This document shows, in pieces, positions 5,838 to 36,113 of a stretch of DNA of 42,334 nt. The notes below the pieces were generated by a model. It was not told where the DNA came from, did not search any database, and saw only the letters and a program-made list of their open reading frames with translations. The translations under genes and the position numbers were made by a program. Source of the stretch: Hyphomicrobiales bacterium (GTDB lineage Bacteria; Pseudomonadota; Alphaproteobacteria; Rhizobiales; Xanthobacteraceae); the NCBI GenBank assembly GCA_016185205.1, contig JACPOA010000054.1, positions 1-42,334 of the forward strand, written 5' to 3'. Within the stretch, counting starts at the first letter, position 1, and each line of letters starts with the position of its first letter.

Positions 5838-6725
5838 TCAGGCAGTTTCGAGCTTGGCCACGTCGGCCAAAATGCCCTCGACCGCCTTGCGATCGTCCGC
5901 GCTTAACGCTGCCTGCGGCGGCACCGGATCGCCAACTTCATAGCCCTGGATCTGCAAGCCGGCCTTGACGCAGGCGGCGAGGTTGAAGCGCGCGAAGGCC
6001 TCGTTGATGCGCCAGAGCTCGCGCTGCAATTTCATCGCTTGCGGCCATTGGCCGGCGCGGCACAGGTCGTACAGCCGCACGCTCTGGCGTGGGATGATGT
6101 TGGCGGGGCCGGCCATCCAGCCGACGCCACCGATCAGCATCACCGCCGCCGGAATATGCGCCGACGCCGAAAATACTTTCATCGCCGGCGCGCGGTTCAT
6201 GATCGACAGCAGCCGCCCGGTATTGGTGGAGGCATCCTTGATGTAGCGGATGCGCGGATGGCTCGAGAGCCGCGCGATCACGTCGAGAGTCAAGTCGCTG
6301 CGCTGGAATTGCGGGTTGGTGTAGAGCACGACCGGAATGTCGACCGCGTCGGCGATGGCGCGGAAGTAGGCTTCGATCTGCGCGTCCTTGAGCGAGAAGT
6401 AGGTTTCGAGAATGGCGAGAATGCCGTCGGCGCCGAGCTTCTGGTAGTTCTTCGCCTGCTCCACGGCATCGGCGGTGGAGGTTGACGCCACTCCGGCGAT
6501 CACCGGCACGCGCTTGTTCGCCGCCTCGATGGTGGCCTTGACCACCGTCGTGCGCTGCTCGCGGTTGAGATAGGCGAACTCGCCAGTCGAGCCGAGCGGG
6601 GTGAGCCCATGCACGCCGGCCTTGATCAGGTCAAACGACAACTTGCCGAGGACGTCGGCCAGGATGCGGCCGGACGCGTCGATCGGCGAAACGAGGTAAG
6701 GGAAAACGCCGTGGAAATCTGTCAT
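5838..6725 (-). CDS. DHDPS/N-acetylneuraminate lyase family protein
   Basis: 295-residue class I aldolase-type TIM barrel. Visible features are the GSTGEFAYL loop that binds the pyruvate carboxylate, IPVVLYTNP with the catalytic tyrosine, and YIKDAST with the Schiff-base lysine. I chose the ATG at 6725, where the family normally begins ([15 protein letters not shown]). A GTG at 6761 would add 12 unrelated residues and overlap the upstream ABC gene. It follows the ABC transporter genes closely on the same strand and is probably the last gene of that operon, suggesting that the imported compound or a product is cleaved by, or condensed with, a 2-oxo acid. The exact reaction is not known. Confidence 0.88.
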
Positions 6726-6748
6726 GCGATCTTCGTAGCACGCGTTTT

Positions 6749-7804
6749 CTAAAACACCCACAGCGCCTCGGGTGGGAATTCGACGTAATGCTCGCCGGGC
6801 GCGAGCGGCGCCGCGGCATAGGCGCGCACGGTGAGATGCTCGCGCGCGAACGCCAGCTCCCAGCGCTCGCCCAGATACATCGGCGCCTTCAGTTCCATCT
6901 TCAGCCGGTTCGGGCCCGGCACTGAGGCGCAGCGCACGTGCTCGAGCCGGATGATGCCGACCGCCTTGCTGCCGACCGCGGCCTTGCTGCGTGGGAGGCC
7001 GGTGATGCGCTCGCCAAATACCTGCATGGTCGCGTTTGCGCCGGAGATTTCCAGCAGCGTACCGTCGAGCCGGTTGTTGCTGCCCATGAATTCCGCCGCG
7101 AACAATGTTGCCGGCTCGTTATAGAGCGCGGTCGGCTTGCCTTCCTGCGCAACCGTGCCGGCATCGAGCAATACGATCTTGTCGGCGATGGCCATCGCCT
7201 CCACCTGGTCGTGGGTGACGTGGATCGCCGACAGGCCGAGGGTGACGATCAGCGTGCGCAGCCAGGCGCGCGCCTCCTCGCGCAGCTTGGCGTCGAGATT
7301 GGACAGCGGCTCGTCGAGCAGGATCACCGGCGGCTCGTAGACCAGCGCGCGGGCAATGGCGACGCGCTGCTGCTGGCCGCCGGAGAGCTGATGCGGATAG
7401 CGCTCGGCCAGCGCGCCCAAGCCGATCTGCGCCAGCGTCTTGTCGACGCGCGCCTTGATCTCGGCGGTAGGCGTGCCGCGCAATTTCAGGCCGTAGGCCA
7501 CGTTGTCGAATACGCTGCGGTGCGGCCACAAGGCGTAGGACTGGAACACTAGGCCGAGCCCGCGTTTTTCCGCCGGCAATTCGATTTTGCGCGCGGCGTC
7601 GTAGAACACGTTGTCGCCGATCGCACTCGAGCCGTCATGCGGTATTTCGAGCCCGGCGATCGCCCGTAACAGCGTGGTCTAGCCGCTGCCCGAGGGTCCC
7701 AGCAGCGCCACCACCTGGCCGGGCGTGACGTTGAGCGAGATGCCTTTGAGAATCTCATTGTCGCCGAGACGCAGACGGAGATCCTTGACCACGAGATCAG
7801 CCAT
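6749..7804 (-). pseudogene. ABC transporter ATPase broken by amber codon
   Basis: A single frame of 351 codons from ATG 7804, interrupted only by a TAG at 7679-7681 (codon 42). The residues before it read VALLGPSGSG and after it TTLLRAIAGLE, so the stop replaces the invariant Walker A lysine; one A-to-T change from AAG explains it. Everything else is intact: the Q-loop (VFQSYALWPH), signature LSGGQQQR, Walker B VILLDEPLSNLD, the switch His (HVTHDQ) and a C-terminal TOBE-like domain, as in FbpC/PotA-type ATPases. Restarting at GTG 7609 would lack Walker A. The start overlaps the permease stop by eight bases, indicating a coupled operon. It is either a real nonsense mutation that disables the importer or a sequencing error. 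Confidence 0.88.
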
Positions 7805-9467
7805 GCAGGCGCACTCCGAGCCGGACCGCGACGGCGAGGCCGACGCCGATCATCACCACATTGACGACGGACAAAGCGGACACCAGATCGATCGCGCCGG
7901 TGCCCCACAGCGACACCAGCAGCGAGCCGATCACCTCGGTGCCGGGCCCGAGCAGATAGATGCCGGTGGAATATTCGCGCACGAAGATCAGGAACACCAG
8001 CAGCCAGCTCGCCAGCATGCCGTATTTGATCAGCGGCACGGTGACGTCGCGCTTGACGCGCAGATCGTTGGCGCCGGAGACGCGCGCGGCCTCCTCCAGC
8101 TCAGGCGCGACCTGCAGCAGCGTGCCGGACACCAGCCGCATGCCATAGGCGAGCCAGACGATCGAATAGGCCAGCCAGATCGAGAACATGGTCGATCTGA
8201 GCGGCGACAGAAACGGCACGAACAGGAACACCCACAGCAGCGCCAGGCCGGCGACCAGGCCGGGCATGGCGCGCGGCACCATCACCATGTAGTCGACCAG
8301 CCGGGTCCAGCCCGAATTCCAGCGGTGCACCGCCAGCGCGATGGCCGTGTAACAGACGACCGATATAGCACCGCCGATCACGCCGATGCCGAGCGTATTG
8401 GTGATGCCGCGCACGACATTCGGATAATCGAGCAGCTCGCGGTAGTGATCGAGCGTCAGCACGTCCAGGAGATCGACGCCTTCGCCCCAGCTCACCACGA
8501 ACGAGCGCAGCGTGATGCCGGTGAGCGGCACCACCACCGTGATGAACAGCCAGAACACGATTGTCCCGAACGCCACCCAGCGCCAGGGGCCGAGCCGCAA
8601 GGCTTGCGTCTTCAGGCCCTTGCCGCGCACCGAGACAAAACGCTGCGCCTGGCGCAGCAACTGCCGCTGCATGAACACCAGCGGCGCGGTGATCGCGATG
8701 ATCACCACCACCACCACGGCCATCAATTGATAGGACGGCACGCCCAGTTTGTTGGTGAGCTTGAACAGATAGGTCGACAGCACCAGCACGTCCTGCGGAT
8801 CGCCCAGCACCAGCGGCAGGCCGAACAGTTCGAAACCGAGAAAAAACACCAGCACGCCGGCGAACAGGATCGCCGGCATGATCATCGGCAGGCTGACATT
8901 GAGCGCGACCTGCAACGGATTGGCGCCGGACACGCGCGCGGCTTCCTCCATGTCGGTGCTCAGCCCCCGCAAGGCGGCGGCGCTGTAGAGATAAACGTGC
9001 GGCACGTGCGTCAAGCCTGCGATCGCGATCAGCGAGAACAGCGAATAAACGTTCCACGGTACGAAGCCGAGCACGTCCTTGGCGAGCGTGGAGAAAATTC
9101 CGACCGGCCCGATCGCCACCACGTAGCCGAAGGCGATCACCACCGCCGAGACGAAGATCGGGATCAGGATCAACGGTTCGAGATATTGGCGGCCCGGCAC
9201 GTCGGTGCGCACCATCAGGAAGGCGAGCAGGGCGCCGAGCGGTACCGCGATCGCCGCCATGCCGCCGGCGATGGCGGCGGTGGTCCATAACGCCTGCCAG
9301 AAATCATCCTCCGCGAACACGAAGGAATAGGCGGAAATGCTCAGGCGCGCCGAGTGATCAAAGAATGGCGCGGTGAGAAAGCTCTGATAGACCACCAGCG
9401 AGAGCGGCGCCACTACGGCCAGCGTAGTGATGCCGAGCACGAGCAAGCGGTACACGATGATGGGCAT
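7797..9467 (-). CDS. ABC importer permease, fused double domain (Fe3+ type)
   Basis: 556-residue inner-membrane permease made of two tandem binding-protein-dependent transport domains. Each half carries an EAA coupling motif: EEAARVSGANPLQVALN around residue 180 and EEAARVSGANDLRVKRD around residue 460. About 12 membrane segments are visible. This double-length form is typical of FbpB/AfuB-type permeases for ferric iron and for some phosphonate or polyamine-like solutes. It lies between the receptor gene (upstream, separated by a palindromic repeat) and the ATPase gene (8-base overlap). The frame is intact, but the partner ATPase carries a stop. Confidence 0.92.
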   Translation of the reverse strand: MPIIVYRLLVLGITTLAVVAPLSLVVYQSFLTAPFFDHSARLSISAYSFVFAEDDFWQALWTTAAIAGGMAAIAVPLGALLAFLMVRTDVPGRQYLEPLILIPIFVSAVVIAFGYVVAIGPVGIFSTLAKDVLGFVPWNVYSLFSLIAIAGLTHVPHVYLYSAAALRGLSTDMEEAARVSGANPLQVALNVSLPMIMPAILFAGVLVFFLGFELFGLPLVLGDPQDVLVLSTYLFKLTNKLGVPSYQLMAVVVVVIIAITAPLVFMQRQLLRQAQRFVSVRGKGLKTQALRLGPWRWVAFGTIVFWLFITVVVPLTGITLRSFVVSWGEGVDLLDVLTLDHYRELLDYPNVVRGITNTLGIGVIGGAISVVCYTAIALAVHRWNSGWTRLVDYMVMVPRAMPGLVAGLALLWVFLFVPFLSPLRSTMFSIWLAYSIVWLAYGMRLVSGTLLQVAPELEEAARVSGANDLRVKRDVTVPLIKYGMLASWLLVFLIFVREYSTGIYLLGPGTEVIGSLLVSLWGTGAIDLVSALSVVNVVMIGVGLAVAVRLGVRLHG

Positions 9468-9590: not shown

Positions 9591-10688
9591 TTACTGCCCC
9601 TTCTTCGCCGCTTGCCACTTGGACAGGAAGGCGAGCCGCTTGGTCTGGTCGAGATTTTCCAGCAGCGTCTGGTCGATGGGAACCGGCCGCGCCTTGTCGC
9701 CGACCATTTGCGTCACCCGCTTCAGCGTGGCTTCGCCCTCCACGTCGGAGCGCAGCGAATAGAGGTCGGCCTTGTTGGCGACGATTTCCTGGCCGCGCTT
9801 GGACAGCAGATAGTCGAGGAACAGCTTGCCGGCGTTCGGGTTCTTCGCCTGCTTGGAGACGAAGGCCACGCGCGAGGTCACCATGGTGTAGTCCTTCGGC
9901 AGGATGACGCCGAGGTTGGGGTCCTTCTTCGAGCGGCCGAGCGCGTAGGAGCCGAAAATGCCGTAGGCGATCAAATGCTCGCCGGAGGTGACGCGCTCCA
10001 TCATGGCGCCGGCGCTGGTGTAGAGTTTCGCGCCGGTCTTGCCGAAGGCCTTGAACAGGTCCCAGGCCGCCGGGAAGTTCTTGATGTCCTCGGTGCAGAA
10101 CAGAAAGCCGACGCCCGAGCGCTCGGGATCATAGGCGGTGACTTTGCCCTTGTAGAAATCCGGCTTGGCGTTGAGCAGCTTCAACAGATCGCCGTGATCC
10201 TTCGGCACGTCCTCGGCCGGCACCAGCCGCTTGTTGTAGACGATGGCGATCGGCTCATAGGTCGTGCCGTAGGCGGCGTCCTTCCACACCGCCCATTTCG
10301 GCAGCGCCTTGATTTCCGGCGAGGCGTAGGTCAGCGCATGGCCGTCGGCGACCAGCTTGACCTGCAGGTCCATGGCGGAGGACCAGATCACGTCGCCGGT
10401 GCCGTTGTTGGCGGCGGCTTCGGCGATGAAGCGATTGTACAGCTCGGTGGAATTGAGATCGGAATACTCGACCTTGATGCCCGGATAGAGCGCCTCGAAA
10501 TCCTTGACCAGCGGATTGGCGGCCACCGAGTCGGTGGTCGAATAGATCACCAGTCTGCCTTCCTTCTTGGCGGCCTCGACCAGCTTGCCGTAGTCGGCCG
10601 GATAGCCTTGCGGGGCCTGCGCGTAAGCGGCGGTGCCGATGCTCAAGGCGGCGGCGATGGCGGCGGATATGGATATGATGTGTCGCAT
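9591..10688 (-). CDS. ABC importer solute-binding protein (Fe3+/family 1 type)
   Basis: 365 residues with a clear signal peptide (about residues 1-23, TAAYAQ). The mature part starts DYGKLVEAAKKEGRLVIYSTTD and continues FEALYPGIKVEYSDLNSTELYNRF, the layout of FbpA/AfuA-type periplasmic receptors. It has no lipobox. The ATG follows GAGGAG at a good distance. As first gene of the operon (receptor, permease, ATPase, lyase), it defines the substrate, but ligand residues such as the paired tyrosines of true ferric receptors are not certain, so iron is only one possibility. Confidence 0.9.
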   Translation of the reverse strand: MRHIISISAAIAAALSIGTAAYAQAPQGYPADYGKLVEAAKKEGRLVIYSTTDSVAANPLVKDFEALYPGIKVEYSDLNSTELYNRFIAEAAANNGTGDVIWSSAMDLQVKLVADGHALTYASPEIKALPKWAVWKDAAYGTTYEPIAIVYNKRLVPAEDVPKDHGDLLKLLNAKPDFYKGKVTAYDPERSGVGFLFCTEDIKNFPAAWDLFKAFGKTGAKLYTSAGAMMERVTSGEHLIAYGIFGSYALGRSKKDPNLGVILPKDYTMVTSRVAFVSKQAKNPNAGKLFLDYLLSKRGQEIVANKADLYSLRSDVEGEATLKRVTQMVGDKARPVPIDQTLLENLDQTKRLAFLSKWQAAKKGQ

Positions 10689-26452: not shown

Positions 26453-26537
26453 GCCCCTGTGGCGGAATTGGTAGACGCGCCTGACTCAAAATCAGGTGAT
26501 GAAAATCGTGCTGGTTCGAGTCCGGCCAGGGGCACCA
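26453..26537 (+). tRNA. tRNA-Leu (anticodon CAA)
   Basis: 85 bases including the encoded CCA. The acceptor GCCCCTG pairs with CAGGGGC, the discriminator is A, and the D-arm GGCGGAATTGGTAGACGC, long class II variable arm and T-arm GGTTCGAGTCC are all in place. The anticodon is 26487-26489 (CAA, reading TTG). Its 3' end points into the integrase region, so it is the likely attachment site of the island. Confidence 0.97.
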
Positions 26538-26637
26538 GGATACCTCCACATAGAAAAACATAGGTGAATATTCGGCAGAATATTCAATTACTTAATAAAT
26601 TCTAAGGTAGTATACTGACCATAGGAAGCATAGCAAT

Positions 26638-26698
26638 CTACTCACATTAGGAGTAGAAATGTGAGTAGGAAATGCCCCAAACGGCGGTCTACTCACAT
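26638..26698. promoter_or_regulatory. Triplicated 10-mer at integrase start
   Basis: CTACTCACAT occurs at 26638-26647 and 26689-26698, and its exact complement ATGTGAGTAG at 26659-26668. The first two copies in opposite orientation form an inverted repeat, and the third ends on the integrase ATG. It is likely a binding site for the integrase or the AlpA-like factor, or an autoregulatory operator. Confidence 0.55.
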
Positions 26699-27896
26699 GG
26701 CGCTGTCGCAGCTTGCCATCAACAAAGCCAAGCCCAAGGACAAGCCGTACATGCTGTCCGACGGCGGCGGATTGCATCTCCAGATCGACACGTCGGGGAG
26801 CAAACTCTGGCGCATGCGTTTTCGCTTCGGTGGAAAAGCCAACATGATGTCGCTCGGATCCTACCCAGCGGTGTCACTCAAGGATGCCCGCGACAAGCGC
26901 GATGAACTCAAGAAGCAGCTCGCGGCCGGCATCAATCCGTCCCTGCGCAAGAAGCTTGACCGGATCAACGCAGCTTCGCCAAACACGTTTGGCGCCATCG
27001 CTGACGAGTACATCGCGAACCTCAAAGCCAACGACGCAGCAACCATCACAATCAGCAAGAACCGCTGGTTTCTCGAAGACCTCGCCGCGCCCATTCGCAA
27101 TCGTCCGGTGAACGAAATTCTTCCGGCCGAACTCCTCGATATTTTGAAGAAGATCGAAGGCAGCGGACGACGCGATACGGCTCACCGACTCCGATCGGTT
27201 ATGGGATCGGTCTTCCGGCTCGCGGTGGCGACCCTGCGTGCGACCAATGATCCGACTTATGCGCTCCGGGGTGCGCTCCTTAAAGTAAAAGTCAAACATC
27301 GAGCCGCGATAACGGACGAGCGCGAGCTTGGCCGGCTGCTCGTCGCGCTCGATGGATACGACGGCTGGCCGATCCTGCAATCGGCATTTCAATTCCTCAT
27401 CCTCACCATGTCTCGACCCGGTGACGTTCGGCACATGAAGAGAAACGAGGTTGATTTTGAGAAACGGCTGTGGCGCATCCCGGCGGAGCGCATGAAGATG
27501 CGCAGAGCGCACAACGTGCCCCTCTCTCGGCAGTCACTTGAGATACTGAAATCTGTTTGGCCCCTCAATGAAGGCCACGAACTGGTCTTTCCGTCGCTTC
27601 GCGCGCACAAGAAGCCGCTCTCGGAGAATGCCTTCAATTCTGTGTTGCGAGGCATGGGCTACCGGAAGGATCAAGCGACATCCCACGGCTTCCGTTCCAC
27701 GGCGAGCACAATCCTGAACGAGCGAGGCTACAGCCCCAACGTGATCGAAGCGGCCCTCGCCCATCAAGACGAGAACGAAATACGCCGCATCTACAATCGC
27801 GCTTTGTATCTGCCGGAGCGAAAGAAGCTGATGCAGGACTGGGCTGACCTGCTTGAAGACTTTAGGAAACAACAGTCGATTTCGCGCGCGGCGTGA
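26697..27896 (+). CDS. Tyrosine integrase, P4/DUF4102 type
   Basis: 399 residues. The N-terminal DUF4102 arm-binding domain (AINKAKPKDKPYMLSDGGGLHLQ, LGSYPAVSLKDARDKRDELKKQL) is followed by a core-binding domain and a C-terminal catalytic domain. Catalytic residues are the Arg in MSRPGDVRHM, HxxR in HGFRSTAS, His in ALAHQ and Tyr in RRIYNRALY. I chose ATG 26697, where the family begins; GTG 26661 with TAGGAG upstream is an alternative adding 12 residues. It would catalyse site-specific insertion at the adjacent tRNA-Leu. It is intact and possibly active. Confidence 0.93.
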   Translation: MALSQLAINKAKPKDKPYMLSDGGGLHLQIDTSGSKLWRMRFRFGGKANMMSLGSYPAVSLKDARDKRDELKKQLAAGINPSLRKKLDRINAASPNTFGAIADEYIANLKANDAATITISKNRWFLEDLAAPIRNRPVNEILPAELLDILKKIEGSGRRDTAHRLRSVMGSVFRLAVATLRATNDPTYALRGALLKVKVKHRAAITDERELGRLLVALDGYDGWPILQSAFQFLILTMSRPGDVRHMKRNEVDFEKRLWRIPAERMKMRRAHNVPLSRQSLEILKSVWPLNEGHELVFPSLRAHKKPLSENAFNSVLRGMGYRKDQATSHGFRSTASTILNERGYSPNVIEAALAHQDENEIRRIYNRALYLPERKKLMQDWADLLEDFRKQQSISRAA

Positions 27897-27904
27897 GCAG
27901 CTAT

Positions 27905-27920
27905 GTGCACATATGCGCAC
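27905..27920. promoter_or_regulatory. Near-palindrome upstream of alpA-like gene
   Basis: GTGCACATATGCGCAC matches its complement at 14 of 16 positions. It lies between the integrase stop and the AlpA-like gene. It is a possible operator. Confidence 0.3.
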
Positions 27921-28006
27921 GTTGAGGCGTTCCATATTTAATGGTATGTTTGTCGTCGCCCAGGGCTAACCGGGGCTTGCAAGCTCCCTTTCACGAGGGA
28001 CTTGCG

Positions 28007-28219
28007 ATGACACGGAAGCTCGTATCGAAGAAGGAACTCAAATCGATCTACGGCGTGCCATACTGTTTTGCGCACATCGCGCGACTCGAAGTCGCCGGCC
28101 AATTCCCTCCACGGGTACGGCTCGGAGCTTGCAGGGTGGCGTGGATCGCGGAAGAGGTGGAAGCCTGGATGAGGAGAGGATCGCCAACCGCGCTCAATCA
28201 AATCCTTCTTAAAGGGTGA
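28007..28219 (+). CDS. AlpA-like phage/island DNA-binding regulator
   Basis: 70 residues with the MerR-like winged helix of the AlpA family: KLVSKKELKSIYGVPYCFAHIARLEVAGQFPPRVRLGACRVAWIAEEVEAWMRR. AlpA proteins act as excisionase-like factors or activators of P4-type integrase genes. The start is ATG 28007 with GAGGGA upstream. It lies 110 bases after the integrase, the usual order in P4-like islands. A hairpin terminator follows the stop codon. Confidence 0.82.
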   Translation: MTRKLVSKKELKSIYGVPYCFAHIARLEVAGQFPPRVRLGACRVAWIAEEVEAWMRRGSPTALNQILLKG

Positions 28220-28220
28220 G

Positions 28221-28250
28221 GGGCCTGGGTCCAACCAGGTTCCTTTCATT
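28221..28250 (+). terminator. Hairpin terminator after alpA-like gene
   Basis: Stem ggggcctgg (28221-28229) pairs with ccaggttcc (28236-28244), including two G-U pairs. The loop is gtccaa, followed by T-rich tttcatttat. It lies between convergent alpA-like and hicA genes. Confidence 0.5.
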
Positions 28251-28273
28251 TATCAGCGCAACAAGCTCACGCC

Positions 28274-28501
28274 TTATAGAAGCGAGCGAAACTCCTCCTC
28301 ACTCAATCCAACATCCTTGATTATTTTCTTTAACAACCATCGCGGCAGATCGCCGGGATGCATCGGCACGGTCGTCACGATATGTCCGGTAACGGCATCG
28401 GCGTAGTAGCGGTGACTCCCTTTCTGGTGTGCGAGCACCAGACCTTTCTTGGTGAGGGCTCTATCCACGTCGCGCGCAGTGCACGGCGGCAGCCGGCTCA
28501 T
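28274..28501 (-). CDS. hicA: HicA-type mRNA interferase toxin
   Basis: 75 residues with the double-stranded-RNA-binding-like HicA fold: MSRLPPCTARDVDRALTKKG, then GSHRYY with the catalytic histidine, VPMHPGDLPRWLLKKIIKDVGLSEEEF. HicA cleaves mRNA when its HicB antitoxin is lost. No hicB is visible on either side. Instead, a 42-codon frame overlaps its start as ATGA and also overlaps the cusA stop, so hicA may be expressed from the cus transcript. It is either a solitary toxin or paired with an unusual short partner. Confidence 0.85.
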   Translation of the reverse strand: MSRLPPCTARDVDRALTKKGLVLAHQKGSHRYYADAVTGHIVTTVPMHPGDLPRWLLKKIIKDVGLSEEEFRSLL

Positions 28502-28626
28502 ACAATCGTCGGTATCTCCACATCCACACCAAGCGATACTTTCGCTGCTGAGCGTTCGACCGGCGGTTCCTGACCGTTGCGCTGCAGATTAGGCCATCTA
28601 AAATTCGCAGCGGATTCGTATTTCAA
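28498..28626 (-). CDS. Small ORF coupled to hicA (possible antitoxin remnant)
   Basis: A 42-codon frame from TTG 28626, with AAGGAG just upstream in the end of cusA, running to a TGA that overlaps the hicA ATG. It reads LKYESAANFRWPNL at the start and ends VSLGVDVEIPTIV. HicB antitoxins of this branch often begin MxYRVVL and end with an EVEV-like strand overlapping hicA in the same way, so it might be what remains after an internal deletion. The similarity is weak, and it could be chance. Confidence 0.3.
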   Translation of the reverse strand: MKYESAANFRWPNLQRNGQEPPVERSAAKVSLGVDVEIPTIV

Positions 28627-31600
28627 ACCGCTCCTTTGATCTTGTGACTGTGCCTCACCTCGCTCCACCATTTCCAGATGACATAGATGGCCGGATAAAT
28701 CAGCAGCCCCAAGATGAAGGTCGTGATAATCCCGCCCACCATTGGCGCAGCGATGCGTTTCATCACGTCAGAGCCGGTTCCGCTCGACCACATGATAGGT
28801 AGAAGTCCCATGAGGATCGCGAGAACCGTCATTATCTGAGGCCGAACGCGCTGGACGGCACCTTCTATGACAGCGGCCTCCAGATCGCCAATGCTGTTCA
28901 TTCGGCCTTCCCGCTTCCAGCGTTCATAGGCTAAATCCAAGTACAGGAGCATCACTATGCCGATCTCGGCATCCACGCCTGCCAACGCGATGATCCCCAC
29001 CCAGACGCCCACGCTGAGATTATAGCCCAGCAGCCACAACAGCAGGAACGCACCGACCAGAGAAAAAGGAACGGAAACCAGCACGATCAGCACTTTGGCC
29101 AGCGAACGCGCATTGAAGTAGAGCAGCACAGTGATGAGAGCGAGCGTGATGGGAATGACGTACATCAGGCGGCGCCCGGCGCGCTGCATTCCCTCGAACG
29201 AGCCGCTCCATTCCAGCCTGTAGCCCGCCGGCAGCTTCACCATATCGGCAACTACCTTGCGAGCGTCGTCCATATAACTGCCGGTGTCCCGATCGGCCAC
29301 GTCCACATAGACGTAGCCCACGAGTTGCGCCGCTTCGCTCTTGATCAAGGTAGGGCCGTCTACGAAACGCAGCTCGGCGAGTTCCCCCAAGGGCACTTGA
29401 GCGCCAGTGGGCGTGGCGACCAGCACCCGCTTCAACTTGTCGGTACTATCCCGCAGCTCACGCCCGTAACGGACGTTCACCGGAAAGCGCTGGCGGCCTT
29501 CGATCGTCTGCGTAACGTTGGCGCCGCCCACCGCCGCCTGGATAACTTCCTGCACGTCCATGACCGACAGCCCATAACGGGCAATGGCTTCGCGGTTGAT
29601 GTCGAAGTCCAGGTAGTAGCCCTGGCTCACGCGTTCGGCGAAGGCACTTCGCGTACCGCGAACTGTGCCCACGGCATCTTCCACTTGCGACAGGATCTTC
29701 CCAATTTCTGCAAGATCCGGTCCGAATACCTTTACTCCAATAGGAGTCCGTATGCCGGTGGAGAGCATGTCTATGCGCGCTTTGATCGGCATCGTCCAAC
29801 TGTTGGATGATCCAATCAGTTTTGTTTTCAGCGTCCGGTCCATCTCCCCGATCAGCTTGTCGGGAGTCATGCCTTTCCGCCACTGATCCGGCGGCTTGAG
29901 GTTGATGACCGTTTCGACCATTTCCAGCGGCGCGGGGTCGGTGGCGCTCTCGGCCCGTCCTGATTTGGCGAAGACGCTGGCGACTTCGGGAAAGTCCATC
30001 AAAATCTTGTTCTGCTCCTGGATCAACTGCTTCATCGTCTGGATAGAAGACCCGGGCAGCGTCGCGGGCATGTAAAGAATCGTTTCCTCCCAAAGCGGCG
30101 GCATGAATTCGCTGCCCAAGCGGGAGTAAATCGGCACGATGGCGGCAGTGGCTAAAACGGCGAGGGCGACCATCACGTAACGCTGTTTCAACACCAGCTT
30201 GGCAACCGGGAGATAGATCCAGATTAAGAAACGGTTGACTGGATTCTTCCCTTCGGCAGAAATTTTGCCCCGGATCAGCAGCATCATGAGGAGCTGCGTT
30301 ACAGTGATCGACAGGAGTGCCGCGAAGGCCATGCTGAACGACTTGGTGTACGCGAGCGGCTTGAACAGCCGGCCCTCCTGGTCCTGAAGGGCAAACACCG
30401 GCAGAAAACTGACAGTGATGATCAAAAGCGAGAAGAATAGCGATGGTCCCACCTCGCTGCTGGCTTCAATGAGAACTTCCAGGCGGGAGCGGCGCTGCTC
30501 CGGTGGCTTGCCCTGCTCGTGCTCAAGGTGTTTGTGTGCATTTTCGATCATCACTATGGCCGCATCCACCATCGCCCCGACGGCGATGGCAATGCCGCCT
30601 AAGCTCATGATGTTGCTCGTCAGCCCGATCCACTGCATGGCTGCCATCGCCATCAGGACCGCCAAAGGCAGTGTGATGATGGCGACCAGAGCGCTGCGGA
30701 CGTGGAACAAGAACACGATGCAGACCAGGCTGACGATGATACTTTCTTCGATAAGCTTCTCGCTCAGCGTCTCCACCGAATGCTTTATAAGCGTCGAACG
30801 GTCGTAGGTAACGACCAGTTCCACCCCTTCGGGCAGCGAAGGCTGGACCTTTTCCTTGATGAGTTCCTTGACGCGATTCAACACGTCATAGACGCTCTCG
30901 CCGAAGCGAACGACGACAATGCCTCCGGCAGCGTCGCCCATTCCATTGAAGTCCACCACGCCGCGACGGATGTCCGGGCCGATCTGGACGGAACCGATAT
31001 TGCGGACGAGAATGGGAGTTCCGTCGGACTGCGCCCCTACCGCCACATTCTCGATGTCGGCGGGCTTTTGAATATAGCCTCTACCGCGTACCATGTACTC
31101 TTTGCCGGTGAACTCCAATACTCGTCCGCCTACCTCTTGATTGCCCCGGCGAATTTGTTCGACCACCTTATTGATAGGGATCTTGTATGCCAGCAGCTTG
31201 TCCGGGTCGATTATGACTTGATACTGCTTGACGAAGCCTCCGACGGGAGCCACTTCCGCCACGCCTGGAACGGTGCGAATTTGGTATTGCACCTGCCAAT
31301 CCTGAAGCGTCCGAAGATCCGCCAGCGAGTGCTTTCCCGTCTTATCGATGAGCACGTATTCCATTGCCCATCCCACCCCTGACGCGTCCGGCCCCAGCTT
31401 GGGTGAGACACCTTGTGGCAGCTTGCCGGACATGCCGCTGAGGTACTCCAACACACGGCTGCGCGCCCAATAGAGGTCCGTGCCATCCTCGAAGATGACG
31501 TAAACCAGAGACTCGCCGTAGAAGCTGCTGGCACGCACCGCCTTGACCTTGGGGGCGGAGAGAAGCTGCGTTACGATAGGATATGTGATTTGGTCTTCGA

Positions 31601-31781
31601 TGATATTTGGACTGCGGTCTTCCCAGCCGGTGGAGACGATCACCTGCACCTCCGAGAGGTCGGGAATCGCATCGAGCGGTGTATTAAAGACGGCCCATAG
31701 TCCGCCACCGACAATGCCAACGACCATCAGCACCATGAGGAACGTATTGCGGGCGCTGAATTCAATGATCCGGGCGATCAT
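28623..31781 (-). CDS. cusA: Copper/silver RND efflux pump CusA
   Basis: 1052-residue heavy-metal-efflux RND transporter of the inner membrane, exporting Cu(I)/Ag(I) with proton uptake. The methionine triad of E. coli CusA is conserved at M571 (LYMPATL), M621 (APLEMVET) and M672 (RIDMLSTG), which argues for monovalent copper or silver rather than Zn/Co/Ni. The proton-relay acids D406 and E413 are present (GAMVDAAIVMIEN). The N-terminal helix and the two periplasmic loops after the first and seventh membrane segments have normal length. It is third in the operon after cusC and cusB (42 bases after cusB). The frame is intact. Confidence 0.95.
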   Translation of the reverse strand: MIARIIEFSARNTFLMVLMVVGIVGGGLWAVFNTPLDAIPDLSEVQVIVSTGWEDRSPNIIEDQITYPIVTQLLSAPKVKAVRASSFYGESLVYVIFEDGTDLYWARSRVLEYLSGMSGKLPQGVSPKLGPDASGVGWAMEYVLIDKTGKHSLADLRTLQDWQVQYQIRTVPGVAEVAPVGGFVKQYQVIIDPDKLLAYKIPINKVVEQIRRGNQEVGGRVLEFTGKEYMVRGRGYIQKPADIENVAVGAQSDGTPILVRNIGSVQIGPDIRRGVVDFNGMGDAAGGIVVVRFGESVYDVLNRVKELIKEKVQPSLPEGVELVVTYDRSTLIKHSVETLSEKLIEESIIVSLVCIVFLFHVRSALVAIITLPLAVLMAMAAMQWIGLTSNIMSLGGIAIAVGAMVDAAIVMIENAHKHLEHEQGKPPEQRRSRLEVLIEASSEVGPSLFFSLLIITVSFLPVFALQDQEGRLFKPLAYTKSFSMAFAALLSITVTQLLMMLLIRGKISAEGKNPVNRFLIWIYLPVAKLVLKQRYVMVALAVLATAAIVPIYSRLGSEFMPPLWEETILYMPATLPGSSIQTMKQLIQEQNKILMDFPEVASVFAKSGRAESATDPAPLEMVETVINLKPPDQWRKGMTPDKLIGEMDRTLKTKLIGSSNSWTMPIKARIDMLSTGIRTPIGVKVFGPDLAEIGKILSQVEDAVGTVRGTRSAFAERVSQGYYLDFDINREAIARYGLSVMDVQEVIQAAVGGANVTQTIEGRQRFPVNVRYGRELRDSTDKLKRVLVATPTGAQVPLGELAELRFVDGPTLIKSEAAQLVGYVYVDVADRDTGSYMDDARKVVADMVKLPAGYRLEWSGSFEGMQRAGRRLMYVIPITLALITVLLYFNARSLAKVLIVLVSVPFSLVGAFLLLWLLGYNLSVGVWVGIIALAGVDAEIGIVMLLYLDLAYERWKREGRMNSIGDLEAAVIEGAVQRVRPQIMTVLAILMGLLPIMWSSGTGSDVMKRIAAPMVGGIITTFILGLLIYPAIYVIWKWWSEVRHSHKIKGAV

Positions 31782-31823
31782 GAGTTGCTCTCAGTGGTGT
31801 TTGCGTGGATTTGCGAGATGGCG

Positions 31824-33098
31824 TCAGTGCTTCGCTCCGGAGTGGTCCCCGCCTTGCTTGGCGGCCGTTCCATCCTTGTCCTCCTGTTTCGCGGCAGGCT
31901 TCTTGTCGCCGGCTGTACCGCTACCGCCCATGCCGGGCATGCCCGCCATGCTCCCGCCGCCAGCTTGCAACCGGCTTTCGGAATCGATCAGGAAGTTGGC
32001 GGAAGTGACCACTTTATCCCCGGCTTTCAGGCCATCGAGAATCTGGAAGCGATCCCCGAACTGCAAAGAGCTGATCTTTACTTGCACCGGAACGAAGCGG
32101 TCTTCGGAAACGGCGCGAAAGGCGATGTCACGCTCTCCGGTGCGGATGACGGCGGATATTGGGACGGTCAAGCCGCTGCCCATCGCATCGGTAATCAAGA
32201 TATTGCCAAACATGCCCGGCTTGAATTCGCCATCGGGATTGAGCAATTCAACACGCACTTGCACCGACCGGGACATCTCATCCACAACCGGATCAATGAA
32301 CACGACTTTCCCGGTGAACTTTCGCGTTGGCAGTGCTGGAAATGACACCGTCGCCGGCATTCCGACGTTGATGTGCGGCAATTCATATTCAAAGATCTTG
32401 GCCTGCAACCATACCGTCGAAAGGTCGGCTACCACGTAAAGTTCGCCCTGGGGCATGACATACTGGCCTTCAAACGCCTTCTTCTCCAATACCGTGCCGG
32501 AAATGGGACTTCGCAAAATCAGCGTCTTTCCCGGTTTCCCGGTTTTCACCAACGCCTCGATCTCGTCCCGAGGTACGTCCCACAGATCCAGACGCTGGCG
32601 AGCGGTCTCCACCACCGTTTGTTGATCCCCTATTCCGGCTCCGGCGGATCGTAACGCCGATAGGAGCTCACGCTGTGCCGTATAGAACGCCGGACTGTAG
32701 ATCGAGAGCATCGGGTCGCCAGCCTTCACCTGTTGGCCGGTGAACGAGACGAACAGCTTTTCGACCCAGCCTTCCGTTTTCAAGTGAATGTGGGCAACCT
32801 TGGTTTCATTGGGACGCACGATGCCCACGGTGCGGACAGTCATTGTCAGCGGCGTCTCCTCCACGCTTCCCAGCACGACCCCGATCCGTTGTTGGACCTC
32901 TTGGCCGATGCCGACTTCGGCGTATCCCGCCAGCGGGCTCTTCGCCGTGGGGGCGTCGGCCGGCTTTGGCATTTCCATGCCAGGCATCGTCCCGCCCGGC
33001 GCTGCCCCTTGTTGCCCGTGAACAGAATGGACGATGCTGAAGATCAACAGCGTTGCCAATGCCGGTCCGGCCAGACGTGCGTATCTCTTCCTTGACAT
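31824..33098 (-). CDS. cusB: RND periplasmic adaptor CusB
   Basis: 424 residues with a signal peptide (about 1-28). An N-terminal methionine-rich stretch (MPGMEMPKP) resembles the metal-binding N-terminus of CusB. This is followed by the membrane-fusion core: GWVEKLFVSFTGQQVKAGDP (lipoyl half), alpha-hairpin, RSPISGTVLEKKAFEGQYV (second lipoyl half), beta-barrel and membrane-proximal domain. The C-terminus adds another Met/Gly-rich and His-ending segment (MAGMPGMGG; HSGAKH). It bridges CusA and the outer-membrane channel and hands metal to the pump. The gene is 32 bases downstream of cusC. Confidence 0.93.
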   Translation of the reverse strand: MSRKRYARLAGPALATLLIFSIVHSVHGQQGAAPGGTMPGMEMPKPADAPTAKSPLAGYAEVGIGQEVQQRIGVVLGSVEETPLTMTVRTVGIVRPNETKVAHIHLKTEGWVEKLFVSFTGQQVKAGDPMLSIYSPAFYTAQRELLSALRSAGAGIGDQQTVVETARQRLDLWDVPRDEIEALVKTGKPGKTLILRSPISGTVLEKKAFEGQYVMPQGELYVVADLSTVWLQAKIFEYELPHINVGMPATVSFPALPTRKFTGKVVFIDPVVDEMSRSVQVRVELLNPDGEFKPGMFGNILITDAMGSGLTVPISAVIRTGERDIAFRAVSEDRFVPVQVKISSLQFGDRFQILDGLKAGDKVVTSANFLIDSESRLQAGGGSMAGMPGMGGSGTAGDKKPAAKQEDKDGTAAKQGGDHSGAKH

Positions 33099-33130
33099 GG
33101 GACTTCCTCGCGATGGTCCGTGCGGTTTTG

Positions 33131-34543
33131 CTATCGCGCGGGTGCGACCGGCGACGCCGGTCGGCCGAGCATCTCGATGTCCACACCCGCAAGCGCCTCG
33201 ATTTCCGCCAACCGCTTCTCCCGTTCTATTCGGACTTGGGCAACCGTTCGACGGACTGCGATCAACATCCGCTGGCTATCGATGAGATCCGCGAAGGCCA
33301 CCTTTCCCGACGCATAGTCGTTGCGGGAGCTGTTGATCAACTGTTCGGCGGCCGGCACGACACGCTGACGATACAATGCCGTTTGCCGCTCCGCGTTCCG
33401 CATGATGTACAAGTTCGCCACAAAGCTCGCGGCGCGGTCTTTCTCAGTTTGCCGGAGCATGGCTTCTGACGACCGCGTCATGGCCTCCGCCTCCCTGATT
33501 GCCCCGCGGATCGCCGGCAGCTTTGTCGGCAGCATCACCATTGTCGAGATAACCTGCGAAACATTACCGGTAACGCTTCCGGAGGGAACAAAATCAGGCA
33601 GATAGGCCAGCCTTGCGAGTTCTATCGCATTCTTCCGTCCCGCCACCTGCCGGGCAAGCCCGGCCAGTTCCGGGTTTTGTTCAACGGCGACGGCAATAAG
33701 CTGCGCATCACCGGCGGCGACAGGGCGTGGTGAGGGCAGAGTTGGCGGAAGTCTCAACGGCGCCTTGGCGTCGCGCGCGAGCATGCCATTGAGCATACCG
33801 CGCATTGAATTGGCTTCTGCTTCCAAGTTTGCCAATTCGTTCTCCGCGATCTGCGACTCGATCTGAGCTTTCAGCAAGTCCTGCAGCGGACCGCCAGCCT
33901 GCGCACGGCTGGCGGCGGAATCGCTTACGAGCTTGAGCAGCCGCAAATTGTCGCGCTCGATGCGAACTTTCTCTTCGCTCAGAGCCAAATCCAAATACGT
34001 GGATAGTACCCGCCGCTGAAGGTCGAATTTGACCGCGCGAAGTTTTTCGCCGGCTTGCCTGGCCGCTTCCAGCGCGATTTCGCCGGCTGTCTGCACTTTG
34101 ATTGGTAGCGACAGATTCATGGATGGATCGAAGCCGACGCCCACCGTCGTTCGGTCCCAAGACTTTATATTTTCGGGCGAGAACATATAACTGAAGCTGA
34201 CGGCGATGTTACTGTTGGGCCACGTTGCGGCTTGATCGATCCGAGCAAATGCCGCCTTCCACTCGAAGTAGGCCGATTCCAATTCGCCGTTGGCAAGAAA
34301 TGCGCGCCGCAAAACGTCGCGCCAATGCACATGCGCCCGCAACGCCGGCAACTGACGTGTTTCAACGGGCGGCTCAAAGACCGGCGAAACCGAATTGAGC
34401 TTCGCCTCCTCCTCGGACGCGCCTTGCGGTGCGAGAACACAACCGGCGAGGCCCAACGTCATCGCCACGCTGGCACTTACGATTAAAGAGCGGACTAACC
34501 GTCCTTTTGGTACCAACGCACTCATTGCTGGACTATGGCTCAT
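33131..34543 (-). CDS. Outer-membrane efflux channel, TolC/CusC type
   Basis: 470 residues. The leader ends in LGLAGC, a lipobox, so it is probably an acylated outer-membrane lipoprotein like CusC. Two repeats of the OEP domain follow with long coiled-coil helices (residues about 150-260 and 360-450, e.g. QRRVLSTYLDLALSEEKVRIERDNL and LYRQRVVPAAEQLINSSRNDYASGKV). It is first of the three efflux genes and completes the tripartite pump. The alternative start is Met 7. The frame is intact. Confidence 0.9.
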   Translation of the reverse strand: MSHSPAMSALVPKGRLVRSLIVSASVAMTLGLAGCVLAPQGASEEEAKLNSVSPVFEPPVETRQLPALRAHVHWRDVLRRAFLANGELESAYFEWKAAFARIDQAATWPNSNIAVSFSYMFSPENIKSWDRTTVGVGFDPSMNLSLPIKVQTAGEIALEAARQAGEKLRAVKFDLQRRVLSTYLDLALSEEKVRIERDNLRLLKLVSDSAASRAQAGGPLQDLLKAQIESQIAENELANLEAEANSMRGMLNGMLARDAKAPLRLPPTLPSPRPVAAGDAQLIAVAVEQNPELAGLARQVAGRKNAIELARLAYLPDFVPSGSVTGNVSQVISTMVMLPTKLPAIRGAIREAEAMTRSSEAMLRQTEKDRAASFVANLYIMRNAERQTALYRQRVVPAAEQLINSSRNDYASGKVAFADLIDSQRMLIAVRRTVAQVRIEREKRLAEIEALAGVDIEMLGRPASPVAPAR

Positions 34544-34607
34544 GGAAGCGTCGTATGATTCCGGTTGTTAGCGAAGTCACATCTGCAGGAAAGCGTGCTC
34601 CTGGTAG

Positions 34608-35085
34608 TTATCGGGTCTCATTGGCAGCGGCGCGTCGAAGCACTTCTGCAGGCGCCAAGCCGAAGAACAGTTTCGACAAGAAGCTGACTGGATATGGAAC
34701 GATCTGGACGAAGTCTGGGTTGATCAGAGGTAGCAGCAAGAGAAAATTGAATGCCCAGTCGCCGACAAGTGCCGTCACTACCACTGCATAGAGGCGGATG
34801 CCTTGAAGCGAGGGGCCCATTAGCGCATGGCAACCGGGCGCAACGGCGATGCCAAGCGGTGATTGCGGCAGCCATGTGAATAGCCACGCCCGCCAGAACA
34901 CCCAATGTAGCAGATGAAATTTCAAGACCTACGACAGCGACGACCCCATACGCGACATTCACAGCCGAAATATTGGCCAAGATGCCGAAGGCCGCGATCC
35001 AGATGACTTCTGCACTTCCTCCAGCAACGCCAGCGAGAATACCGTATTTGATGATTTTGGTGCGGCCCGATTGACTGACGGACAT
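34608..35085 (-). pseudogene. Frameshifted small membrane protein gene
   Basis: The first half reads MSVSQSGRTKIIKYGILAGVAGGSAEVIWIAAFGILA through AIHMAAAIT. The second half continues one frame over from LGIAVAPGCHALMG to FLLLLPLINPDFVQIVPYPVSFLSKLFFGLAPAEVLRR, both being hydrophobic helices of one roughly 155-residue protein. The frame changes near 34855-34865. It lies directly upstream of cusC on the same strand. I do not know its function; such small four-helix proteins occur beside metal-efflux genes. It is a pseudogene or a single-base sequencing error. Confidence 0.72.
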
Positions 35086-35327
35086 TCTGGATCTCACGCT
35101 TTTTGCCGTTATGCAAGCTTATCCAAGAAGCTGCCGAGCTTGATTAATCCAGATTAAAGACCAGGCAGGATAAGTGGAAAAACTTTATATTGGAAAGCTT
35201 TGCGCTCGTCTATGGCGGTAATTCTGCATATGACGCCGTTGAGGACGAGTTCGGAGATCCTACGGAATCTCATGATTCGCTTGTGGCACCGGTGTGTATG
35301 CATGAGCGTGAGGGGGTGGGCTCATGA
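35086..35327. other. AT-richer gap with possible gene fragment
   Basis: There is no complete gene. A plus-strand frame at about 35149-35327 is open without a good start codon (FALVYGGNSAYDAVEDEFGDP in part) and ends TGA; it may be a truncated gene. The promoter of the efflux genes could also lie here, but I see no convincing -35/-10 pair or known copper operator. Confidence 0.35.
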
Positions 35328-35876
35328 CTATAGGTAGCCTGGCTTGCCGTCCTCCAGGGCCTCGATCCCGTCTTCCTGGTATCGGTTATACCGTCGTAGA
35401 AGGTCGATCTCGGAATCCCGATCGGCGCCAAGGTCCGGCCGACCGACAAGGTCGATTGTTCGACCAGCTCGATGATCTCGAACTTCTCGGATGCTGAGTA
35501 TCTCATGAAGCGTTCTCCCCATCCCCGAGAACGCTTTTTTTAAGCAAGCGGTTTTCAATCAGGACCTCGGCCAGCGTCTCTTTGAGCTGCCGGGCCTCGG
35601 CCTTTAGATCCTTGACCTCGTCCGAAGTCGCTTCCCACGCGGTGTCGCCGGCGAGCCTCTTCTTGCTCGCCTCCAGGAACTCTTTCGACCAACGGTAATA
35701 AGGTTCTGGTTGATTCCTTCCTTGCGACAGAGCTCGGCGATGCTGACCTCACCGCGCAACCCTTCCAGCACGATGCGGATCTTTTCTTCGGCCGAGTGAT
35801 GCCGACGGGTGGCTCTACAGATATCCCGGACGGTCTTCTTTGCGCTGTCCGGTATACGCTTGCTCGCTTGTTTCAT
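35328..35876 (-). mobile_element. Decayed IS3-family element (orfA and start of orfB)
   Basis: orfA starts at ATG 35876 after GAGGAG (MKQASKRIPDSAKKTVRDIC, then EKIRIVLEGLRGEVSIAELCRKEGINQNL). It needs a one-base correction near 35698 to continue YYRWSKEFLEASKKRLAGDTAWEATSDE through the leucine-zipper region to ENRLLKKSVLGDGENAS, ending at 35503. A run of seven A bases near its end is the usual IS3 slippage site. orfB starts at 35506 (MRYSASEKFEIIELVEQS), needs another one-base correction near 35396, and stops after about 60 codons. No catalytic DDE domain remains, so it is a dead relic. Confidence 0.85.
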
Positions 35877-36036
35877 CGTTCGCTCCTCAACGGGGCTACG
35901 ATGAGCCGGAAATCCTCTCTTACGCAATCAGCTCGTTCTGTCCGACAAGTGCTGACGGCCCACAGATAATATTAATATCCGTTCTACCTTCGGTCCGTGC
36001 GGAGGCATTGCGCCCCGGTTCGTAAAATTTATTTAT

Positions 36037-36113
36037 TGGCGCGCCGGAAGGGATTCGAACCCCTGACCCCCAGATTCGAAGTCTGGTGCTCTATCCAGCT
36101 GAGCTACCGGCGC
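36037..36113 (-). tRNA. tRNA-Arg (anticodon TCG)
   Basis: 77 bases including the encoded CCA. The acceptor GCGCCGG pairs with CCGGCGC, the discriminator is G, and the D-arm (TAGCTCAGCTGGATAGAGCA), anticodon stem CCAGA/TCTGG and T-arm GGGGTTCGAATCCC are in place. The anticodon is at 36077-36079 (TCG, reading CGA). Its 3' end points left into the accessory region, opposite to tRNA-Leu. Confidence 0.97.

Follow-up and report, generated by a model that had tools for sequence, protein, structure and literature searches.

An in-frame amber codon at the Walker A lysine position of an otherwise conserved ABC importer ATPase gene in a Hyphomicrobiales draft genome

The ATPase gene of a putative ABC importer operon in a Hyphomicrobiales genome carries an in-frame amber codon at the position of the Walker A lysine, and this interruption is probably, with somewhat more than even confidence, a very recent single-nucleotide nonsense change that is genuinely carried by the sequenced strain or population. 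The window, that is, the whole stretch of 42,334 nucleotides analyzed here, corresponds to contig 27 in its entirety; the draft genome comprises 4.38 Mb in 112 contigs and is 96% complete. At positions 7679 to 7681 of the window, the forward strand reads cta and the reverse strand TAG, which is codon 42 of the ATPase frame that runs from 7804 to 6749 on the reverse strand. The amber codon is flanked by LLGPSGSG on one side and TTLLRAIAG on the other, and the frame of 351 codons is otherwise open, its sole further stop being the terminal TAG. The sequence-only reading had described an amber at the Walker A lysine between GPSGSG and TTLL, in a frame that is otherwise perfect over 351 codons, as a one-base change from a lysine codon. 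The sequence agrees with the first part of this description, and the lysine codons of relatives agree with the second.

With X at codon 42, the ATPase frame matched PF00005 with 115.7 bits against a cut-off of 25. The top NCBIfam models were PhnT2 and PotA, of which PhnT2 scored best with 294.9 bits, under its cut-off of 457.7; the cut-off was reached by none of the best 25 NCBIfam models, and therefore no substrate was assigned. The frame contains VFQSYA, LSGGQQQR, ILLDEP, and HVTHD, which we take to be the Q-loop, the signature motif, Walker B with the catalytic glutamate, and the H-loop, respectively, and its Walker A motif is left without the lysine by the TAG at codon 42. In length and in the Q-loop, LSGGQ, Walker B, and H-loop motifs, the window ATPase is similar to importer ATPases (PF00005) of the MalK/PotA/PhnT2 type, to which the gene order with a permease and a binding protein is also similar. 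In contrast to those enzymes, it has a stop in place of the Walker A lysine.

The neighboring genes on the same reverse strand are intact, as judged by their open frames and by comparison with orthologues and Pfam models, which agrees with the earlier statement that the receptor, permease, and lyase genes beside the ATPase are undamaged. The permease gene (positions 7797 to 9467), which also matches NCBIfam models, encodes a PhnU2-like protein with two BPD_transp_1 stretches in one chain, and the solute-binding protein gene lies at 9591 to 10,688. Downstream of the ATPase gene lies a gene for a DHDPS-family lyase (5838 to 6725), the start of which is placed by conservation probably at 6725; the ORF list opens at 6761. 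Permease and binding-protein orthologues accompany the ATPase and the lyase in eight of the ten loci compared, in which the permease orthologues cover 552–556 of 556 residues, and lyase matches were found in all ten, two of which are truncated where the contig or stretch ends. In the two genomes G023 and G008, the ATPase and the lyase are kept, but the stretch examined contains neither the permease gene nor the binding-protein gene; here the ATPase gene directly adjoins a DUF924 gene (L201, 7344–9017, and L202, 7403–9028, respectively). The ATPase can thus persist without the permease at the locus, as in these two genomes.

Sixty genomes were searched for the ATPase, comprising the genome itself, 35 of the same genus, and 24 of the same order. 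End-to-end matches with 71–89% identity were found in nine of the 35 same-genus genomes, none of them with a stop, and locus L008 provided a tenth distinct orthologue. No internal stop occurs in any of these ten orthologues, nine of which are equal in length to the window ATPase, the one in G008 being two codons longer, and all ten have lysine at codon 42, encoded by one common codon. A wider alignment of 110 loci was assembled from two homologue searches (80 and 30 loci), further matches being listed without a locus; L015 and L009 are identical to two of the nine same-genus orthologues, and the 110 loci contain at least two pairs of identical sequences. Codon 42 is covered in all 110 and encodes lysine (AAG or AAA) in 109, the exception being the window itself. 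The amber codon is therefore private to the window assembly among the aligned loci, which is the outcome of the comparison with close relatives that the sequence-only reading had proposed.

Selection on the frame was assessed with a codon branch model implemented in our own script (F3x4, one kappa, FastTree topology), in which codon 42 of the window was treated as missing. The model was applied to the ATPase, the permease, and the binding protein, with one extra run in which G028 was the foreground, and the lyase was compared by pairwise counts only. For the ATPase, omega was 0.065 on the window branch and 0.092 on the background. A separate rate for the window branch gained only 0.6 lnL units (−6990.20 versus −6990.78 for one rate), which is not significant, and omega 1 on this branch was rejected, as its lnL of −7017.73 is 27.5 units worse. 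The likelihood profile placed the usual 95% limit of the window-branch omega near 0.12, and the neutral share of the branch is at most about 3%, or 6% when the branch's own estimate is taken as the starting rate. The same picture was obtained for the neighbors, with window-branch omega values of 0.078 for the permease and 0.054 for the binding protein. Pairwise dN/dS values of the window ATPase (0.11–0.15) fall inside the range of the other pairs and of the neighboring genes, and the window protein has two private replacements, compared with 0–16 in the ten other orthologues. The absence of relaxation on the window branch means either that the loss is very recent, within about the last 3–6% of the branch, or that there is no loss. 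The earlier claim of a very recent loss accordingly holds up on the proviso that the stop is real. An old, decayed pseudogene is ruled out by the omega of 0.065, the rejection of omega 1, and the few private replacements. Of the features of a nonsense pseudogene, an internal stop relative to full-length orthologues was found; relaxed selection, which is expected of an old one, was not.

Identity to the nearest relative, G028, is 88.9% for the ATPase, 94.8% for the permease, and 95.9% for the binding protein. Accelerated evolution of the ATPase was considered as the source of its lower value and rejected, since dS is also raised (0.45 versus 0.21 and 0.23). The divergence from G028 is approximately doubled over positions 6250–7750 of the window (compared with L196), where the ATPase and part of the lyase show dS values of 0.44–0.45; the permease and binding protein have values of 0.21–0.23, and the shift lies near the ATPase–permease junction. 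This pattern suggests that homologous recombination may have occurred in one of the two lineages over the ATPase and part of the lyase.

The rate of internal stops elsewhere in the genome bears on whether the amber codon is a real allele or a base miscall in a draft assembly, in which case the ATPase of the organism would be intact and the stop would have no biological meaning. Internal stops were found in two of 265 domain hits to six Pfam families, some of the hits being partial and some proteins giving two: 1 of 97 for ABC_tran (150 of 163 candidates scored, one of the 97 hits being under the cut-off), 1 of 38 for BPD_transp_1, 0 of 58 for TctC, 0 of 41 for adh_short_C2, 0 of 7 for Aldedh, and 0 of 24 for AMP-binding. 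The second amber codon lies in an ABC permease gene on contig 29 (L204, G000:C29:127500-131500) at C29:128929-128931 on the reverse strand, where the 20 last codons of the permease follow the TAG and all five close orthologues have glutamine. Among the weaker matches, at identities of up to about 40%, more than ten carry a single TGA or TAA. That both stops are TAG is unremarkable, because TAG is the outcome of 60 of the 91 single-step paths by which a codon of the ATPase gene can become a stop. In the same-genus draft G007, a paralogous ABC ATPase (L193, G007:C317), the other one with an amber among the matches listed, also has one such codon, which lies after the H-loop and not in Walker A. 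Recurrence of an amber at the Walker A lysine was rejected, given the position of this stop and the location of the genome's own second amber in a permease.

Were both ambers miscalled, the two stops in at most 58,292 sampled positions would correspond to approximately 4e-4 errors per base, with Poisson limits of 5e-5 to 1.4e-3. In our judgment, the central value is high for an assembled consensus, although a rate at the lower limit of 5e-5 could plausibly occur in a draft. A miscall would be in keeping with a draft in 112 contigs and with unrelaxed selection, which a functional gene would show. Furthermore, the change at codon 42 is a transversion, and in real bacterial mutation transitions are usually commoner than transversions. 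On the other hand, 263 of the 265 sampled domain hits are uninterrupted, and the error rate that two miscalls would imply is high, even if its interval is wide. A miscall is hence a serious possibility, but one held at less than even probability. A real allele is favored because the stop is private, the frame is under purifying selection, the genome contains a second amber, and the error rate would be high if both were miscalled; it may be judged more likely than a miscall, which would give the same picture, the sequence alone being compatible with both. Cooley and Wright report that errors of assembly account for many putative pseudogenes of bacterial assemblies, that both coverage and platform play a part, and that internal stops follow base miscalls; metagenome-assembled genomes were left out of that assessment (PMC11017572). 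The window ATPase is similar both to recent single-nonsense pseudogenes and to internal-stop artifacts as described there, with one stop in an intact, conserved frame in one assembly, and differs from them only in the accident of position. The stop in the ATPase is in this respect ordinary. If it is real, it is a further case of a null allele that arose very recently in an accessory importer, the ATPase of which is found in a minority of the same-genus genomes searched; if it is an error, it is a further caution against biological interpretation of single internal stops in drafts.

A full-length ATPase could also be produced if TAG were read as an amino acid through a suppressor tRNA, pyrrolysine insertion, or a change of code. 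In keeping with such recoding, the frame has no other damage and is under constraint, and the draft does not yield a complete tRNA set: tRNA-Ile(gat) and tRNA-Ala(tgc), for example, were not called, so that a decoding tRNA could be missing. However, none of the 41 tRNAs called by ARAGORN in this incomplete set has a CUA anticodon, and the one uncalled member of the 42 tRNA matches in the genome, the odd tRNA-like element L192, for which no anticodon was called, has no CTA in its predicted anticodon arm. RF1 (prfA) is present without a stop (profile match of 482.4 bits against a cut-off of 423.25). TAG also serves as the terminal codon of the ATPase gene and of its orthologues in G028, G025, and L008, and the two ambers of the genome replace different residues, lysine and glutamine. 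Recoding is therefore very improbable; in particular, a suppressor tRNA was rejected on the called tRNAs and the intact RF1, which also removes the support for suppression as the earlier reading had entertained it, and pyrrolysine insertion was rejected on the PylS score (22.3 bits against a cut-off of 178.15). The related notion that a tRNA lacking from the draft, or overlooked in it, decodes the amber, such that a full-length ATPase would be produced and the stop would act as a translational control on the importer, deserves equally little credence. L192 (G000:C29:240062-240165) lies approximately 180 bases from the end of its contig and scores 44.4 bits against the tRNA family. It has a tRNA-like fold with an enlarged anticodon arm that contains an extra hairpin, and ARAGORN calls no tRNA there; it is possibly an intron-bearing, degraded, or mobile-element tRNA.

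Under the preferred reading, in which the amber is a real allele, a very recent single-nucleotide nonsense change would have struck the ATPase gene in a conserved importer operon that consists of the binding protein, permease, ATPase, and lyase genes. Translation would end after 41 residues, and any product of a downstream restart would be without Walker A. The cognate ATPase would then not be made, and the importer would be unpowered unless another ATPase substitutes. The sequence-only reading took the importer to be disabled; this is a deduction, because certain type I importers rely on a shared ATPase, as in the known cases in which one ATPase serves several sugar importers (PMC7658222). 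Multitask ATPases such as MsmX, in the same source, show that a permease can do without a dedicated ATPase, and only by analogy might this apply to the operon here. A real and tolerated loss, with another ATPase of the genome powering the permease, could draw on the 97 ABC_tran matches mentioned above and on paralogues of the same type in the genome with 42–46% identity (34 of 107 candidates scored), and the loci of G023 and G008 illustrate that ATPase and permease are not always together. Against this, the cognate ATPase was strongly constrained until very recently, and the best paralogue among the matches listed is only 46% identical, on the same scored subset, which also led to the rejection of a close backup copy. 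In addition, the shared-ATPase cases are sugar importers, while no sugar substrate is assigned to the operon here, and G023 and G008 keep the ATPase, which suggests that it is needed and not spare. Substitution by another ATPase is thus very unlikely.

The earlier reading had called it notable that the stop falls on the most critical codon of the gene. This is overstated, since 76 codons of the ATPase gene are one step from a stop (91 single-base paths), and with translation ending after 41 residues, it makes no further difference which residue the stop at codon 42 replaces. Given a nonsense change, 6–8 of the 91 paths (roughly 7–9%) hit a residue in one of the nucleotide-binding motifs, and the chance of landing on this very codon is about 1 in 76. 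The position of the stop on the Walker A lysine is a coincidence without extra meaning. The lysine was also said to be essential for ATP binding, which stands in a weaker form and not as an absolute, as replacement of the Walker A lysine of MsmX by alanine decreases ATPase activity by 80%, according to PMC7658222.

Elsewhere in the window, positions 26,453–36,113, between tRNA-Leu(caa) and tRNA-Arg(tcg), probably constitute a genomic island. Among the matches listed, no long near-exact direct repeat was found at its ends. The island contains a tyrosine integrase gene beside tRNA-Leu, a transposase fragment, and an RND efflux set composed of an AcrB-family pump, a CusB-like fusion protein, and an outer-membrane factor.
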